DNA of 64,000 bases, taken from positions 60,361-124,360 of IMG/VR virus record IMGVR_UViG_3300020478_000003; one strand, written 5' to 3'. The DNA is from a virus. Positions 4,633-26,616 of the stretch are shown here, one piece after another. Below the pieces are notes generated by a model. It ran no database searches, was not told the origin of the DNA, and saw nothing but the letters and a program-made list of their open reading frames with translations. A program made the position numbers and the translations under genes. The number at the start of each line of letters is the position of its first letter. Positions within the stretch are counted from its first letter, which is position 1.

Positions 4633-5040
4633 ATGAAAATTGAAGAACTAGAAAAATTAGTAGAAAAAGACCTCTATATTGACGAAACAATCCTCGCCAA
4701 AGAGTCTCTTTTAACTCCTACCAAGCACAATAAGTATCTAAAGATGCTATTGAGGGAACGATTGAAGTTAAAGCAACTTCAAAATGAACTCAATAAAGTA
4801 TCTCTAGGTAGGACTTGTTATTATAATGGTTCAGATCCTGATCCTTATGAATATGTCCTCAAAGATCGAGAGGTCAAAGACTATGTTAAGGTAGATCCAG
4901 TTGTGATGGAAGCAGAAGCAAAGGTGGCTTTGCAAGACGAAACAGTTAAATATCTTGAAGAAGTCTGTAAAATGTTTGACAAACGTGGATTTGCTATAAA
5001 GAATGCAATCGACTTTATGAAATTTACCGAAGGCGGATGA
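4633..5040 (+). CDS. uvsY: UvsY recombination mediator
   Basis: 135 residues (T4 UvsY 137). UvsY loads UvsX recombinase onto gp32-coated single-stranded DNA. The N-terminus (MKIEELEKLVEKDLYID) aligns with T4 UvsY, and the C-terminal RGFAIKNAIDFMKF block matches the T4 RGFAIKHIQDMRAF region. The start is fixed by this alignment although there is no room for a Shine-Dalgarno sequence after the promoter. It overlaps the next gene by 4 nt, and uvsW follows two genes later as part of a recombination operon. Confidence 0.95.
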   Translation: MKIEELEKLVEKDLYIDETILAKESLLTPTKHNKYLKMLLRERLKLKQLQNELNKVSLGRTCYYNGSDPDPYEYVLKDREVKDYVKVDPVVMEAEAKVALQDETVKYLEEVCKMFDKRGFAIKNAIDFMKFTEGG

Positions 5041-5426
5041 GAGAATACTTAAAGAATTATTATGATGCTCCTTGGTCTGATAATAATATAGTCCACGAAA
5101 CCGAAGATATAGTAGTATACAAAGATGGATTTCCTGTCACAGAAGGTCATCTTTTATTTGTACCTAAAAAAGTTGAGCAAAGAAAAGACATTACACGTTG
5201 TTTTGAAATGGCTTATGAATGGGGTGTAAAAGGTATAATGGATTATAAATGGACAGCATTTAACTTGGGTATTAATAATGGAGAAGATGCTGGACAGACA
5301 GTAATGTGGACACACGTACATTTGATTCCACGAAGGAAAGGTGATCTAGGATCTTTTGAAAATGGTACTCCTTATGATCCCGCTGGCGGAATTAGAAATA
5401 TAATTCCAGGAAAGGGAAAATATTGA
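5037..5426 (+). CDS. HIT-family nucleotide hydrolase/transferase
   Basis: 129 residues. The fold of HIT proteins is visible: an N-terminal VVYKDGFPVTEGHLLFVPKK strand pair, then NNGEDAGQTVMWTHVHLIPR (about residues 81-100) carrying the active-site motif. Canonical HIT is H-x-H-x-H; here the first His is Trp and the second (nucleophile) and third remain (THVHLIPR). Such enzymes hydrolyse or transfer nucleotidyl groups of substrates like AMP-lysine or dinucleoside polyphosphates; the substrate here is unknown. It starts with ATGA overlapping uvsY and is translationally coupled to uvsW. Confidence 0.85.
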   Translation: MREYLKNYYDAPWSDNNIVHETEDIVVYKDGFPVTEGHLLFVPKKVEQRKDITRCFEMAYEWGVKGIMDYKWTAFNLGINNGEDAGQTVMWTHVHLIPRRKGDLGSFENGTPYDPAGGIRNIIPGKGKY

Positions 5427-7237: not shown

Positions 7238-7393
7238 ATGGATGCGTGTATGACATTAGCAAATGAATTAATATCTATATCCTCCACCCATATGATCATC
7301 GGAGGAATTATCTTTTCGGGAATGTCATTTTGTTTAGGAGTTATTTTTGAAAAATCCTTTCAGGAAGAACTTGACAATAAAGCAAAAGTTTAG
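7238..7393 (+). CDS. Small single-pass membrane protein
   Basis: 51 residues from the ATG at 7238, chosen because GAAAGGA lies 6 nt upstream; an earlier in-frame start at 7205 overlaps the previous gene and has no such site. A hydrophobic segment (about residues 20-38, IIGGIIFSGMSFCLGVIF) is followed by a charged tail. The end of the gene carries the promoter of the downstream RNA. Function unknown. Confidence 0.6.
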   Translation: MDACMTLANELISISSTHMIIGGIIFSGMSFCLGVIFEKSFQEELDNKAKV

Positions 7394-7399
7394 TATAAT
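7371..7399 (+). promoter_or_regulatory. Consensus sigma70-type promoter for a non-coding RNA
   Basis: TTGACA (7371-7376), 17 nt, TATAAT (7394-7399), preceded by AAC. It overlaps the end of the small membrane protein gene. The next 530 nt contain no credible gene, so it most likely drives the structured RNA that begins near 7406. Confidence 0.85.
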
Positions 7400-7405
7400 A
7401 TAAAA

Positions 7406-7685
7406 ATTTGCATCAATGTTCGCCGTGGGACGAGACACGGATTCCACCTAGATCAGAACCTAGGTAAGTAGCCTTTGGTGAAGTGAGCAGACTATAATAC
7501 TCGACAAACGGAGTTGAGGTCTGTGTATTGATGTGCCGATGCAAGCACTAAATATACGTAAAAATCGGGTCGGGACTCACCACATAATGGTATTGTCCAC
7601 TAGAGACTTGTGAATCGACACAAGCGAGGCTATCAGGAACCGTAACCTGGCTCTATAAGCTAGGATGTATCTTTTTACCGACTGT
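7406..7685 (+). ncRNA. Structured non-coding RNA A, unknown family
   Basis: Begins about 7 nt after a perfect promoter and has no open frame of note. The 5' domain is closed by CATCAAT (7411-7417) with ATTGATG (7527-7533) and holds three hairpins: CCGTG/CACGG with loop GGACGAGA (7423-7440), ACCTAG/CTAGGT (7446-7465), and CAGAC/GTCTG stacked on CTCGAC/GTTGAG with a 7-nt bulge (7488-7523). The 3' part has a long-range pair GTCGG (7569-7573)/CCGAC (7678-7682) enclosing CTTGTG/CACAAG (7607-7624) and CAGG/CCTG (7634-7649). Motifs recur in the RNA at 23045. No family was recognised; pairings were drawn by eye. Confidence 0.7.
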
Positions 7686-7717
7686 ATAAATTCTCTTTAA
7701 ATAAAGACTTTAAAAAA

Positions 7718-7834
7718 TGAAATTGCGAAAGGGCGAAGCCCTTGAGCATCCTGTTTCGAGCAAAGCGAGAAACAGGACTTAGATGTAACTTTTGACTCTC
7801 GGACCTACGGTCCTCGAGAGGCTTCGCCATTTCA
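7718..7834 (+). other. Four-way junction of three nested hairpins
   Basis: TGAAATTGCGAA (7718-7729) pairs with TTCGCCATTTCA (7823-7834) with one mismatch, enclosing AGGGC-GAA-GCCCT (7730-7742), TCCTGTTTC/GAAACAGGA (7749-7777) and CTCTCGGACC/GGTCC-TC-GAGAG (7796-7820). It may be the 3' domain of RNA A, a processing or termination structure, or a DNA site. No T-run follows, so it is not a classical terminator. The two hairpins at either end are clearly more GC-rich than the surroundings. Confidence 0.65.
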
Positions 7835-7861
7835 GGTTATATAGATATTTACATAAAAGAC

Positions 7862-7890
7862 TTGACTTATTGAATTTAAAAGAGTATAAT
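7862..7890 (+). promoter_or_regulatory. Sigma70-type promoter for gene 55 operon
   Basis: TTGACT (7862-7867), 17 nt, TATAAT (7885-7890), preceded by AAAAGAC as in most promoters of this genome. It lies 42 nt before the late sigma factor gene and would transcribe 55-47-46. Confidence 0.88.
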
Positions 7891-7932
7891 TAGAAGATAT
7901 ATTGTACTTAATATAATTTTGAAAAATATACT

Positions 7933-8553
7933 ATGGCTAAGAATGATCAAAAAGAACCAGTTGATTTAGATAACCCAACTCACTACATCAATAATAAGGA
8001 TTTTTTACAGGCTCTTATAGATTATCAAAAAGAGATCAAAGAAGCCAAGAAAGCTGGTAAATCAAAACCTTATGTTAGTGATTACATTGCTATGTGTTTC
8101 CTACAGATAGCACAAAGACTTTCCTATAGACCAAACTTTATAAACTACACGTATAAAGATGATATGATATCAGACGGTCTAGAAAATTGTCTGGCTTATA
8201 TGCACAATTTCAATCCTTCGAAGAGCAAAAATCCTTTTGCTTATTTTACACAAATAATATACTACGCATTTTTACGAAGAATCCAGAAGGAGAAGAAACA
8301 ACAATATATTAAGTATAAAGTATATTCCGAACATCAACAGGAGATTGAAGATGAACACGAAAAACTTTCTCCCGATTTCATCAATGAAAAGGGATCTGCC
8401 GATTTTCATATTCATATAAAAGAGTTTATAGACGAAATGGAACGAAAAGAGAAAGAGAAGAAACAGAAACGAGAACAGAAGAAAGCCGAGAGGGAAAGAA
8501 AAATACAAATAGAATCTACTCCTGAAAACAATCTTGAATTCTGGATGCAATGA
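7933..8553 (+). CDS. 55: Late sigma factor gp55
   Basis: 206 residues (T4 gp55 185). It directs host RNA polymerase to TATAAATA late promoters, working in T4 with gp33 and the sliding clamp gp45. The core RPNFINYTYKDDMISDGLEN, then NFNPSKSKNPFAYFTQIIYYAFLRRI (about residues 75-120), corresponds to sigma region 2 and is strikingly close to T4. The C-terminal half is a highly charged Lys/Glu helix. No gp33 homologue was recognised in the window. It overlaps gene 47 by 4 nt. Confidence 0.95.
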   Translation: MAKNDQKEPVDLDNPTHYINNKDFLQALIDYQKEIKEAKKAGKSKPYVSDYIAMCFLQIAQRLSYRPNFINYTYKDDMISDGLENCLAYMHNFNPSKSKNPFAYFTQIIYYAFLRRIQKEKKQQYIKYKVYSEHQQEIEDEHEKLSPDFINEKGSADFHIHIKEFIDEMERKEKEKKQKREQKKAERERKIQIESTPENNLEFWMQ

Positions 8554-21995: not shown

Positions 21996-22378
21996 TGGCT
22001 TACTCCGAAAAAGTATTAGATCACTATGAAAGACCACATAATGTTGGTTCTTTGGACCCTGGGGATAGTAGTGTTGGGACTGGTCTTGTGGGTGCTCCAG
22101 AATGTGGTGATGTTATGAAACTACAGATTAAAGTAGACGAAAATGAAAAGATTGTTGATGCCAAATTTAAAACTTTTGGGTGCGGATCTGCAATTGCGGC
22201 TTCTTCTCTGGCAACTGAGTGGATTAAGGATAAGTCTTTGGACGAAGCAAGTACGGTTCAGAATACTCACATCGTGGAAGAACTTTCACTACCACCTGTC
22301 AAAATTCATTGCTCTGTATTGGCGGAAGACGCTATTAAAGGAGCGATTGCAGATTATAGGAACAAAAACAAACATTGA
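21995..22378 (+). CDS. iscU: IscU iron-sulfur cluster scaffold protein
   Basis: 127 residues, essentially the length of E. coli IscU (128). The three ligand cysteines fall at the same numbers as in E. coli: C37 (GAPECGDVM, with D39), C63 (FGCGSAIA) and C106 (LPPVKIHCSVLAED). The LPPVK motif recognised by the HscA chaperone is intact. It should accept sulfur from host IscS and build Fe-S clusters. No iscS, hscA or fdx is nearby, so host partners would be needed. Its start overlaps the previous stop by one base. Confidence 0.95.
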   Translation: MAYSEKVLDHYERPHNVGSLDPGDSSVGTGLVGAPECGDVMKLQIKVDENEKIVDAKFKTFGCGSAIAASSLATEWIKDKSLDEASTVQNTHIVEELSLPPVKIHCSVLAEDAIKGAIADYRNKNKH

Positions 22379-23040
22379 AGAAAAACATTGAAGATTATGT
22401 TTTTCACAAAAAGAATTTTTTAGATGATGATTTTTGTGAAAAAGCTATAAGTGATTTGAATACGTGCAAGTGGAAGAAACACGGATGGTATATACCGACT
22501 ACATCTTTACCAGTATTTGAAAATATACCTCCGGCTGGAGTAGAAAAAGAATCAGAAGTTATAGATATTGAAAAGATGCACCCTGCCACTTATGCAGGCG
22601 ACCTTATTCAATCAGGAGATCCAGAAATGACTCTCCAGAATAAAGTTGAAGATTTAAACGATGTAATAATAAAAAAATTACGAGGTGCTTTAGAGGAATA
22701 TGTTCGGGGCTTAGATTTTTATTGGTTTAGTGGATGGGAAGGATATACTGGAATAAAATTTATACGATACTTCCCAGGTCAAGAAATGAAAGTTCATTGC
22801 GACCATATTCATTCTATGTTTGATGGTGTACGAAAAGGAGTTCCGATCCTTTCTATTATAGGTCATTTAAATGATGATTATGAAGGTGGTGAAACCTATA
22901 TGTTTGATGACAAAGACGGAGATTTATTGGAAACAGAAAAAGGAGATTTGTATGTATTTCCTTCTTGTTTTCTGTTTCCTCATTATGTTACCCCGGTGAC
23001 AAAAGGAACTAGATATTCTTATGTTAGCTGGGTTTGGTAA
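22375..23040 (+). CDS. 2OG-Fe(II) oxygenase, prolyl 4-hydroxylase-like
   Basis: 221 residues; TTG start inside the IscU stop (TTGA). Double-stranded beta-helix features: FIRYFPGQEMKVHCDHIH carries the H-x-D iron ligands, GHLNDDYEGGETYMF is the typical core strand, and FPHYVTPVTKGTRYSYVSW has the distal His and the 2-oxoglutarate-binding Arg. The family hydroxylates proline, other residues or nucleobases; the substrate is unknown. One of five such genes in the window. Confidence 0.85.
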   Translation: MKKNIEDYVFHKKNFLDDDFCEKAISDLNTCKWKKHGWYIPTTSLPVFENIPPAGVEKESEVIDIEKMHPATYAGDLIQSGDPEMTLQNKVEDLNDVIIKKLRGALEEYVRGLDFYWFSGWEGYTGIKFIRYFPGQEMKVHCDHIHSMFDGVRKGVPILSIIGHLNDDYEGGETYMFDDKDGDLLETEKGDLYVFPSCFLFPHYVTPVTKGTRYSYVSWVW

Positions 23041-23044
23041 GATC

Positions 23045-23258
23045 AGCTGGGCAAACGACACTAAAGCCAGAATCGAAGGGACGGACTTCGATGCCTGTCG
23101 TGAATAAAGTGCTCCACCTAGATGAAGTTAAGAGATTCTCCTCCAAAAGTCCCGACGGTACGTGCCACAGGGTGAAGGAGTAGAAACTAATTGCTACACA
23201 AACACCGAGAGCGGTGATGCAAAAGTTTCTTTCGAGATAGTCTAGGCTCTACCCAGCT
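23045..23258 (+). ncRNA. Structured non-coding RNA B, related in motifs to RNA A
   Basis: Fills the gap after the oxygenase gene. Outer helix AGCTGGG (23045-23051)/CCCAGCT (23252-23258). Inside: CGACA (23056-23060)/TGTCG (23096-23100) around ATCGAAG/CTTCGAT with loop GGACGGA (23072-23092); and AGAAAC (23182-23187)/GTTTCT (23225-23230) around TTGC/GCAA and CACCG/CGGTG. The loop GGACG, the word TCCACCTAGAT, GCC-N3-GG(G/T)TGAAG and an ACAAAC element occur in the same order in RNA A. No promoter was found directly upstream, so it may be cut from the operon mRNA or act in cis. Family unknown. Confidence 0.68.
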
Positions 23259-23288: not shown

Positions 23289-23435
23289 ATGGCTCGATCA
23301 GCTTTTAAACAGGCAAATGCAAAGACCTGGCAATCAGTACCCAAAAGAACTTCAATAGGATGTTCTAGTAATTCCCGACCTAAAAATAAGCATAAGAGAA
23401 AGGGTTGGAAGAAATATAGAGGACAAGGAAAATGA
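23289..23435 (+). CDS. Small basic protein
   Basis: 48 residues, strongly basic with a Lys/Arg-rich second half. No family recognised; composition fits nucleic-acid binding. Overlaps the next ORF by ATGA. The upstream AAAGAAA is a weak ribosome binding site. Confidence 0.5.
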   Translation: MARSAFKQANAKTWQSVPKRTSIGCSSNSRPKNKHKRKGWKKYRGQGK

Positions 23436-24397: not shown

Positions 24398-25006
24398 ATG
24401 AAAGATGGTGTAGTACTGGATCTTGAGACCTTAGGTAGTGTTAATAATTCAGTAATTTTATCAGTTGGTATGGTCGCAGTGGACTCTACCAAAGATTATA
24501 CGTTTGATGAACTGATTAAAGACGGTTATTACGCTAAACTGGATGTCAAGAGTCAAGTTGATGCTGGAAGAAAAATTCATAAAGATACTCTCCAGTGGTG
24601 GAGCGAACAAGGAGAAGCCGCTCAACATATATTAAAACCCTCCCCCAAAGATATGCACTGGTCTAAGTTACGAGAGGATATGATCTCGTGGCTCACCGAT
24701 CAAGGCGTAGATACCCATAAAGTAAAAGTCTATTCACGAGGATCCCACTTCGATTTCGGTCTTTTACACGATCTCTTTCGCATTACAGAAGGTGTAGGTC
24801 AAGATGATCTACCTTGGCGTTACTGGAATATCCACGATTCAAAAACAGTAGTGTTTACATTACTTGGACGGGATGTCTGGGATATGGGAGTAGAGCCTGA
24901 AGGCTTTATTCATCACGATTGTCTCCACGATGCCGCGAGAGAATATTTAACAATACAGTCCGCTCTTTATATGTTTCAAGACACATTATCGGGAGATCCA
25001 TTTTGA
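24398..25006 (+). CDS. dexA: DexA-like 3'-5' exonuclease
   Basis: 202 residues (T4 DexA 227). DEDD-family exonuclease: LDLETLGS (ExoI, about residues 7-14), then DTLQWWSEQGEAA, SRGSHFDFGLLHDL (ExoII, about 109-122) and HHDCLHDAAREY (ExoIII). The T4 enzyme removes 3' nucleotides from DNA and is dispensable. Start preceded by TGAGG. It overlaps the halogenase start by 4 nt. Confidence 0.9.
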   Translation: MKDGVVLDLETLGSVNNSVILSVGMVAVDSTKDYTFDELIKDGYYAKLDVKSQVDAGRKIHKDTLQWWSEQGEAAQHILKPSPKDMHWSKLREDMISWLTDQGVDTHKVKVYSRGSHFDFGLLHDLFRITEGVGQDDLPWRYWNIHDSKTVVFTLLGRDVWDMGVEPEGFIHHDCLHDAAREYLTIQSALYMFQDTLSGDPF

Positions 25007-26616
25007 AAAATATTGTCGTAGTAGGTGGAGGATCAGCAGGATGGATGACCGCTACTACTTTATTACATCAATTTCCAGATAAAAAAATTACGCTTGTAGA
25101 ATCACCTAATGTTCCTAATATAGGAGTAGGAGAAAGTACGGTCGATGGTAGTCAGAGCGGATTTTCTGGTATTGTTGATTGGCTAAGATTGGTGGAAATT
25201 GAAGATAATGATTGGATGCCCCATTGTGATGCTATTCATAAACTAAGTATCGGATATAAGGATTGGTATAGAAAAGACTCTGGGATATTTCATTTCCCAT
25301 TTGGTCCAGAATATCTTCAGCATAATAATTATGGATTTAAACTGAACGATTGGCACCTCAAAAAAATATTTTATCCTGAAACTCCATTAAGTGATTATGC
25401 AGAGACTTTTTATCCAGGAATGGCTTTAATAAATCAGAACAAAGCAATTCATTATGATCCACCATTTTGGAAAAAAGCTGATATTGAGGTTCAGCAATAC
25501 TCAGGATGGTCTTATCAATTTGATGCTACTAAATTTGGATTCTATTTAAGAGACCGATACTGCAAAGCTAGATATGCTGAAAATTTTACTCATATTCAAG
25601 CAGAGGTATTAGGAATACCTCAAAATGATGAAGGTATTAAATATCTCATATTGGACAATGGACAAAAACTTGAAGCAGATTTGTTTGTAGACTGTACTGG
25701 ATTCAAATCGTTATTATTGACTAAAACCTTTGAGGTAGAATTTGAATCCGTAGAAGATTTCATTCCCAACAATTATGCTTGGGCTACAAAAATTCCTTAC
25801 AAAGATCCAGAGAAACAAATTGTGAATTATACAATGTGTTCAGCTATTGAGAATGGTTGGATATGGGAAATCCCGTTGTGGTCTAGAATGGGTGCTGGGT
25901 ATGTATTCTCAGATAAATTCGTTTCTACAGAACACGCTTTATGTGAGTTTAAAGCAGAACTACAGAAAAAGGGATATGAAGATGCGGAAGAATTAGATTA
26001 TCACCTGATTCCAATGCGATGTGGTATTCAAAAAAGATTGTGGGTTAAGAATGCTGTTGCTATTGGACTATCGGCAGGATTTGTTGAACCACTACAATCT
26101 ACTGGATTACAGACTATATATCAATTTCTCTTTAATTTGGTTCGTGCATTATCTAGAGGTCGAATAGGTGAATGGGACAGAAGAGAATTTAACACTAAAT
26201 GCCACGATCATTTTTATGCTTTTGGAGGAACCGTTGCTCTTTTATACTCATTAAGTCATAGAGATGATACGGAATATTGGAGAGATATTCAGACCGGGCT
26301 CCATTATCCAGAAAATTTATTTACGGAAGGTCACACACCTGGTTTTCCTAGAATGTTTACTCGTTACTATGACGAAAGAAATAAACAACTGGAGTTTAAT
26401 TTGGGAAGTGCAGTACACGCATTGTCTGCCGGTATGAATTGGAATCCAATATATAAATTGAATCCAGCTTTGTCGGGTGAAGATATAGAAAAGACAAAAG
26501 AGTGGGTGGAAATTTTTATACAACAAACCGACGAAAGAAAAAGGAAGTGGAATGATGAGATAAAAGAATTTCCAAGTCCATATCAATACTCAAAAGACAA
26601 TATTTACAATGGATAA
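25003..26616 (+). CDS. Flavin-dependent tryptophan halogenase-like protein
   Basis: 537 residues from the TTG at 25003 (TTGA overlap); the open frame extends 28 codons further but lacks homologous character. FAD motif GGGSAGW (8-14), catalytic lysine K80 in HKLSIGYKDW at the place of PrnA K79, the W-x-W-x-I-P signature (286-291), and EPLQSTG. With these intact it could chlorinate or brominate an indole or other aromatic. No flavin reductase is nearby. Substrate unknown; flanking oxygenases suggest a modification pathway. Confidence 0.9.
   Translation: MKNIVVVGGGSAGWMTATTLLHQFPDKKITLVESPNVPNIGVGESTVDGSQSGFSGIVDWLRLVEIEDNDWMPHCDAIHKLSIGYKDWYRKDSGIFHFPFGPEYLQHNNYGFKLNDWHLKKIFYPETPLSDYAETFYPGMALINQNKAIHYDPPFWKKADIEVQQYSGWSYQFDATKFGFYLRDRYCKARYAENFTHIQAEVLGIPQNDEGIKYLILDNGQKLEADLFVDCTGFKSLLLTKTFEVEFESVEDFIPNNYAWATKIPYKDPEKQIVNYTMCSAIENGWIWEIPLWSRMGAGYVFSDKFVSTEHALCEFKAELQKKGYEDAEELDYHLIPMRCGIQKRLWVKNAVAIGLSAGFVEPLQSTGLQTIYQFLFNLVRALSRGRIGEWDRREFNTKCHDHFYAFGGTVALLYSLSHRDDTEYWRDIQTGLHYPENLFTEGHTPGFPRMFTRYYDERNKQLEFNLGSAVHALSAGMNWNPIYKLNPALSGEDIEKTKEWVEIFIQQTDERKRKWNDEIKEFPSPYQYSKDNIYNG

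Follow-up and report, generated by a model that had tools for sequence, protein, structure and literature searches.

The purine riboswitch (RF00167) is a three-way junction that is closed by a P1 helix, has conserved junction segments and brings its two arms together through kissing loops, and GOLLD, HEARO and the phi29 pRNA are phage-encoded structured noncoding RNAs. Candidate structured RNAs in viruses were reportedly collected in a large computational survey by Fremin and colleagues in 2023, in which the family described below may be present, unnamed. The structured manA and wcaG RNAs come from marine metagenomes and T4-like cyanophages and have been proposed as cis-regulators of defined gene sets (PMC2864571). 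Phage T4 itself has two stable RNAs in its tRNA region, RNAC and RNAD (species 1 and 2), the role of which was still unknown according to a 2010 review (PMC3014915).

Here we describe a stretch of about 215 nt on the + strand of a marine T4-like phage (RNA B; Table 1), intergenic in a window of 64,000 nt, which is the whole stretch of DNA analysed. We found that it is a structured RNA and, with near certainty, a member of a new noncoding RNA family of marine T4-like phages. Like T4 RNAC and RNAD, the family RNAs are genes of T4-like phages, of stable-RNA size (100-220 nt), that come as two different RNAs (PMC3014915), and they stand beside tRNAs on the same strand at 10 family loci, although not in the window. 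Unlike the T4 RNAs, with which they share no sequence or structure homology, they lack the tRNA-like T-arm of RNAC, and the family models have no match at the T4 rnaC/rnaD locus. The purine riboswitch is similar in architecture only: the Rfam match is absent, the family arms are far longer, no single class of gene lies downstream and the RNA often stands before tRNAs. These likenesses, in position to the T4 RNAs and in architecture to the purine riboswitch, are not a family relation. Family RNAs gave no cmscan match to manA or wcaG; they also differ from GOLLD, HEARO and the phi29 pRNA in size or architecture, with no Rfam 15 match and no IscB-like or other partner gene adjoining.

Homologues and covariance models

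The phage is T4-like by family matches of its DNA polymerase, DnaB-type helicase, topoisomerase and ligase, with marine T4-like phages and cyanophages as its nearest annotated relatives (polymerase identity of about 50%). A Tryptophan halogenase (PHROG 2928) stands at window positions 24919-26616, in a phage replication region.

RNA B contains no ORF of at least 60 aa, and its folding energy alone is unremarkable (z -1.34), so that it is established by its homologues and not by folding energy. The sequence-only reading had proposed an undescribed RNA class here, and for this stretch the proposal stands, on grounds other than those first given: Rfam has no match, and we found 46 distinct homologues in IMG/VR (39 of type 1, RNA B included, and 7 of type 2) with compensatory changes in nearly every helix.

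Three syntenic copies were reached via relatives of the upstream 2OG-Fe(II) oxygenase, and many further copies, in other neighbourhoods, came from scanning IMG/VR for conserved stretches; a first scan (GGACG followed by TCCACCTAGAT) returned mostly chance matches among the matches listed. A scan with the 3′ motif only hit 36 contigs, 31 of which had already been collected, so the type-1 set is near saturation in the IMG/VR collection; the scan added the members L261, L262, L264 and L265, and a further candidate, L263, was rejected as not belonging to the family. The type-2 RNA was first met downstream of a type-1 RNA in L142, then in more contigs. The two L142 copies stand in tandem at 4732-5128, 37 nt apart, and a consensus sigma-70 promoter precedes the first. 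Both subtypes, with one copy each, are present in two contigs, and a single copy per phage record is otherwise usual (one per record in 14 of 14 records). The family RNAs are about 150-220 nt long and come in long and short forms of two homologous subtypes, RNA B being a long form of type 1.

Three covariance models were built, for type 1 (R1), for type 2 only (R2) and for both combined (R3). RNA B scores 140 bits with R1 (E 5e-30), 44 bits with R2 (E 2e-10) and 171 bits with R3. Furthermore, R1 found all type-2 RNAs, at 31-60 bits (33 bits for L142), and the independently built models of the two subtypes detect each other's members reciprocally at E of about 1e-10 to 1e-11.

Known relatives were sought at several levels. 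With cmscan, none of the 4227 families of Rfam 15 matched the window at the gathering threshold; with E up to 5, Rfam gave nothing related for RNA B or for the type-1 and type-2 RNAs of L142, and in 13 member loci only tRNAs matched. RNase P, tmRNA, a group I intron and the cyclic-di-GMP and FMN riboswitches show short-word likeness to the RNA and were rejected, as motif order and helices misfit and cmscan was empty. A blastn search with five family members, which reaches to about 65-70% identity, gave no match in 50,697 phage records, and when the family models were run over the complete records of T4, HTVC008M, two cyanophages and one single-cell-derived marine virus, no score rose above chance level. 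Among 84,980 bacterial and archaeal genomes neither of two exact-pattern scans gave a match, the patterns being so narrow that divergent cellular relatives could escape them. The family is thus uncatalogued in Rfam 15 and stands as a separate RNA family of T4-like marine phages, many members of which are adjacent to tRNAs.

A three-way junction with docked arms

We show that the family fold is a three-way junction closed by P1, with a P2 arm and a P3-P4-P5 arm (Table 1). In the alignment of 34 type-1 sequences (A1), 96.9% of the pairing is standard and 21 of the 36 pairs are changed on both sides, a result equalled in 0 of 500 shuffles; sliding the partners left 26-48% paired. In the alignment of all 46 sequences of both types (A3), 95.8% of cells pair and both sides have changed in 32 of the 36 pairs, again with 0 of 500 shuffles equal, A3 being fitted to the structure and A1 the cleaner covariation test. 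Because G-U cells on paired columns far exceed A-C cells (151 vs 8), we assign the RNA to the + strand.

Table 1. Window coordinates of RNA B, its structural parts and the adjoining genes
Feature	Position	Strand	Basis or detail
Upstream gene, 2OG-Fe(II) oxygenase	22375..23040	+	Pfam PF13640, E 7e-12; stop 4 nt before RNA B
Structured noncoding RNA, type 1 long form	23045..23258	+	R1, R2 and R3 scores and homologues
P1, 5′ strand (partner 23252-23258)	23045..23051	+	7/7 pairs changed on both sides in A3
J1/2, conserved unpaired YAAAYGA	23052..23058	+	Near invariant in both subtypes
P2 arm	23059..23111	+	Covariation of the P2 and P2b stems
Stems P2; P2a; P2b hairpin	23059-23061/23109-23111; 23066-23070/23095-23101; 23073-23078/23086-23091	+	
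P2b loop GGACGGA	23079..23085	+	A23081-C23082-G23083 kiss C23161-G23162-U23163
J2/3, CUCUA-like conserved unpaired segment	23112..23116	+	In both subtypes
P3, 5′ strand CCTAGAT, within TCCACCTAGAT of the sequence-only reading (partner 23240-23246)	23117..23123	+	7/7 pairs double-changed
Conserved unpaired GAAGTTAA; together with 23123, the UGAArUU-AAG element	23124..23131	+	Invariant or nearly so in type 1
P4/P5 arm	23138..23178	+	P4 at 23138-23140/23234-23236 and 23143-23144/23177-23178
Stems P4c; P5	23151-23153/23170-23172; 23157-23159/23164-23166	+	P5 loop ACGU at 23160-23163
P6, optional long-form arm holding ACAAAC	23182..23230	+	23182-23188/23224-23230, inner TTGC/GCAA and CACCG/CGGTG
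J3/1, conserved unpaired CTCTA	23247..23251	+	Type 1 CYCUN, type 2 CUCUR
Small basic ORF, 48 aa, downstream	23289..23435	+	30 nt after RNA B

Several parts named by the sequence-only reading are indeed present in RNA B, namely the 7-bp closing helix AGCTGGG/CCCAGCT, which is P1 and in the family frequently extends past 7 bp and is then followed by a T-run, the hairpin with a loop that begins GGACG (GGACGGA), TCCACCTAGAT at 23113-23123, GCCACAGGGTGAAG at 23164-23177, and the AGAAACT/AGTTTCT helix with ACAAAC. Their place in the family varies. CCTAGAT is one strand of a covarying helix and also reads CTTAGAT, CTTAAAT or GCTAGTT in homologues and CTCTGGT in type 2, while the AGAAAC/GTTTCT helix and ACAAAC sit in an arm, P6, that short forms lack. 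The P4 helix is continuous in the short forms, and P6 is inserted in its 3′ side in the long ones; P6 has a z of -2.3 in the window and slight covariation support. The long forms L192, L261 and L262 carry a very different P6 arm (beginning GGAAAAGCTTATGACTCCGG), which suggests that this optional arm is exchangeable. Elsewhere in the fold, CACU/AGUG of P2 is replaced by CUCU/AGAG, and the type-2 counterpart of GAAGTTAA is UGAAAUUUAAG. Among the type-2 RNAs L235, L236, L237 and L242, some carry further elements outside P1: an additional outer helix, GTGGG...CCCAC, and a small hairpin on the 5′ side, TTCTGTGACCAGAA.

In an unbiased scan for covarying columns, the pair formed by the P2 loop and the P5 loop ranked first, and nothing else outside the listed helices stood out. 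Three base pairs join the P2 loop (GGACGGA) to the P5 loop (ACGU). In A3 (columns 43-45 with 129-131) 98.6% of cells are paired and all 3 pairs are double-changed, with 15 double-change cells vs 2.7 in shuffles, and the pairing mostly collapses when the partners are slid. Type-1 RNAs have ACG/CGU, except that L264 and L265 have GCG/CGC, L264 being closely related to L182, which has ACG/CGU; type-2 RNAs have GUA/UAC, GUA/UGC (with a wobble) or GCA/UGC, and the P5 loop GCUAC of L142b pairs too. We show that this kissing pair docks the two arms, and RNA B has it, together with the P1-P5 three-way junction, the conserved YAAAYGAC and UGAArUU-AAG and the P5 hairpin of the family. As the fold is resolved by covariation down to the kissing pair, probing, pull-down and deletion experiments can be designed directly.

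Genomic neighbourhoods and allele replacement

At nearly all loci the RNA points the same way as the genes that directly adjoin it, and the neighbours vary: an oxygenase, NifU or SNase gene, what we take, from reading the sequences rather than from a family search, to be a glycosyltransferase and a sliding clamp, or a tRNA, with the 48-aa ORF and a HIT-like ORF also found downstream. The 48-aa ORF is conserved behind the RNA in L122, L123 and L187 and lies near type 2 in L235, L237 and L242. At 10 loci (L141, L146, L147, L149, L154, L176, L201, L239, L242 and L265) a co-directional tRNA for Asn, Asp, Tyr or Gly starts 2-15 nt downstream of the RNA; in the window itself ARAGORN found no tRNA or tmRNA. 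In five related loci (L141, L142, L158, L174 and L175) the RNA is preceded, at about 35 nt, by the consensus sigma-70 promoter TTGACA-N17-TATAAT. In L165, L177, L181, L182, L185 and L215 the upstream ORF overlaps the RNA gene by 17 nt and takes its stop from J1/2 (AAA TGA).

Next to near-identical flanks, the RNA itself can differ sharply. When the window is compared with L121/L123, identity is 98-100% in the flanks and about 80% (blastn) or 87% (globally aligned bases) in the RNA, and the divergent stretch is sharply bordered, running from the oxygenase stop codon to near the end of P1. Flanks of 93% contrast with an RNA of 86% in L187/L213, and a downstream identity of 96% with an RNA of 81% in L174/L203; L190/L211 show the reverse (upstream 82%, RNA 95%). 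Because the identities of flanks and RNA are discordant, RNA alleles must be exchanged, or diverge, independently of their neighbours. The helices of differing alleles are kept by compensatory change. That alleles are replaced so sharply in phages otherwise nearly identical is a hint that the RNA itself is under selection.

Possible roles of the family RNA

We favour, with moderate confidence, a free-standing RNA that acts in trans during infection and is comparable in position to T4 RNAC and RNAD. A free RNA is preferred over a leader because the flanking genes differ between loci, tRNAs adjoin in 10 of them and some copies have promoters of their own. The RNA would arise either within the transcripts of phage operons or tRNAs or from a sigma-70 promoter of its own, and cleavage around the closing P1 helix would free it; since no promoter is evident just upstream of RNA B in the window, RNA B would need to be processed from the oxygenase transcript. 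Once freed, the stable, tertiary-folded RNA would act in trans rather than switch the gene that follows; most likely it would bind a protein, a ribosomal component or another factor that the phage needs to take over host gene expression. The unrelated T4 RNAC and RNAD are made in that setting too. No protein gene travels consistently with the RNA among the loci compared, so no partner is suggested. Assigning the role to translation or the tRNA setting is more tentative, and we put it at somewhat below even chances; the link is circumstantial because about three quarters of the loci have no adjacent tRNA.

Much of the same evidence could be read differently. The three conserved junction segments, the kissing loops and the highly conserved unpaired positions would also suit a cis-acting riboswitch or leader, in which ligand binding to the Y-shaped junction with its loop-loop kiss controls the gene that follows, and the spacing of 27-38 nt to the next start codon, seen at several loci, is equally expected of a cis-regulator. 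This reading is nevertheless unlikely, because downstream genes are unrelated between loci and a tRNA comes next in 10 of them, the member loci show neither a consistent downstream gene class nor a consistent expression platform, and Rfam gives no match to the purine or any other riboswitch. That the RNA is catalytic, self-cleaving or otherwise, and trims polycistronic or tRNA transcripts of the phage, seems improbable: the compact kissing-loop fold, the strongly conserved unpaired bases and the directly adjacent tRNAs would fit, but Rfam ribozyme matches are zero, no invariant nucleotide lies beyond the P1 boundary to mark a cleavage site, and host RNases already cut tRNA ends.

The unrelated neighbourhoods and the discordant identities of flanks and RNA in the four comparisons given above (window vs L121/L123, L187/L213, L174/L203 and L190/L211) could in turn be those of a mobile or exchangeable cassette, a structured element or a recombination site that hops or is exchanged between phage loci and itself does little. 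We give this little weight, as the RNA is not accompanied by a transposase, an endonuclease or terminal repeats and swapped alleles retain their pairing through compensatory change, which places the RNA structure under selection. Building on the trans-acting RNA that we favour, one may imagine a new kissing-loop-folded class made alongside the phage tRNAs of T4-like marine viruses, in which binding to a variable host factor, in an arms race, drives the exchange of alleles between phages that are nearly identical elsewhere; this is a possible but rather doubtful extension. If true, no earlier RNA of this kind would have been defined so well that one could ask what the stable RNAs in T4-like tRNA regions are for.

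RNA A, a second conserved element

The sequence-only reading had joined RNA B in one undescribed class with a second RNA in the window (RNA A, 7407-7549), from ordered short motifs that recur in both. Of this pairing, the membership of RNA B in a new family stood and that of RNA A did not. The best scores of RNA A were 1.8 bits with the type-1, 3.4 bits with the type-2 and 2.4 bits with the combined model (7350-7950, filters off), so that all three are at chance, vs 140, 44 and 171 bits for RNA B, and RNA A is rejected as a family member. Furthermore, it is without the family core of YAAAYGAC, UGAArUU-AAG and the P5 hairpin with its kissing loop.

The shared motifs fared little better. TCCACCTAGAT does recur at 7443-7453, 15.67 kb from its place in RNA B, but with at most one mismatch it occurs 3 times vs 1.1 expected and so is not rarer than chance. 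The pattern GCC-N3-GG(G/T)TGAAG, said to be common to both, is one base too short in RNA A (GCC-TTT-GGTGAAG), and with one mismatch allowed RNA B is its sole match. Among 1000 dinucleotide shuffles of A, 52 reached the local alignment score of A against B, as did 15 of 423 pieces of 150 nt taken arbitrarily from the window; shuffled controls, then, reach the same similarity. Most of the shared motifs fall at positions that vary within the family and not at its conserved ones, and CCTAG pairs locally in RNA A but with a strand about 120 nt away in RNA B. With the family models rejecting RNA A as well, we give the one-class reading almost no credence.

Instead, RNA A is a separate conserved element (7400-7700 of the window) with a likely outer helix, TTGCATC/GATGCAA. 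It has near relatives of its own in L033, L040, L042 and L064, in two of which ACAAAC reads ACATAC. Some covariation is seen by eye, TTGCAT/ATGCAA becoming TTGTAC/GTACAA in L033 and ACTC/GAGT becoming ATTC/GAAT, a compensatory change in a hairpin, in L040; the conserved sequence runs on past 7550. The gene that follows (7933-8553) has a weak match to sigma-70 region 2 (E 0.004) and possibly encodes a gp55-like late sigma factor. The non-coding DNA in front of it measures about 540 nt and has inverted repeats rich in G+C at 7720-7830.
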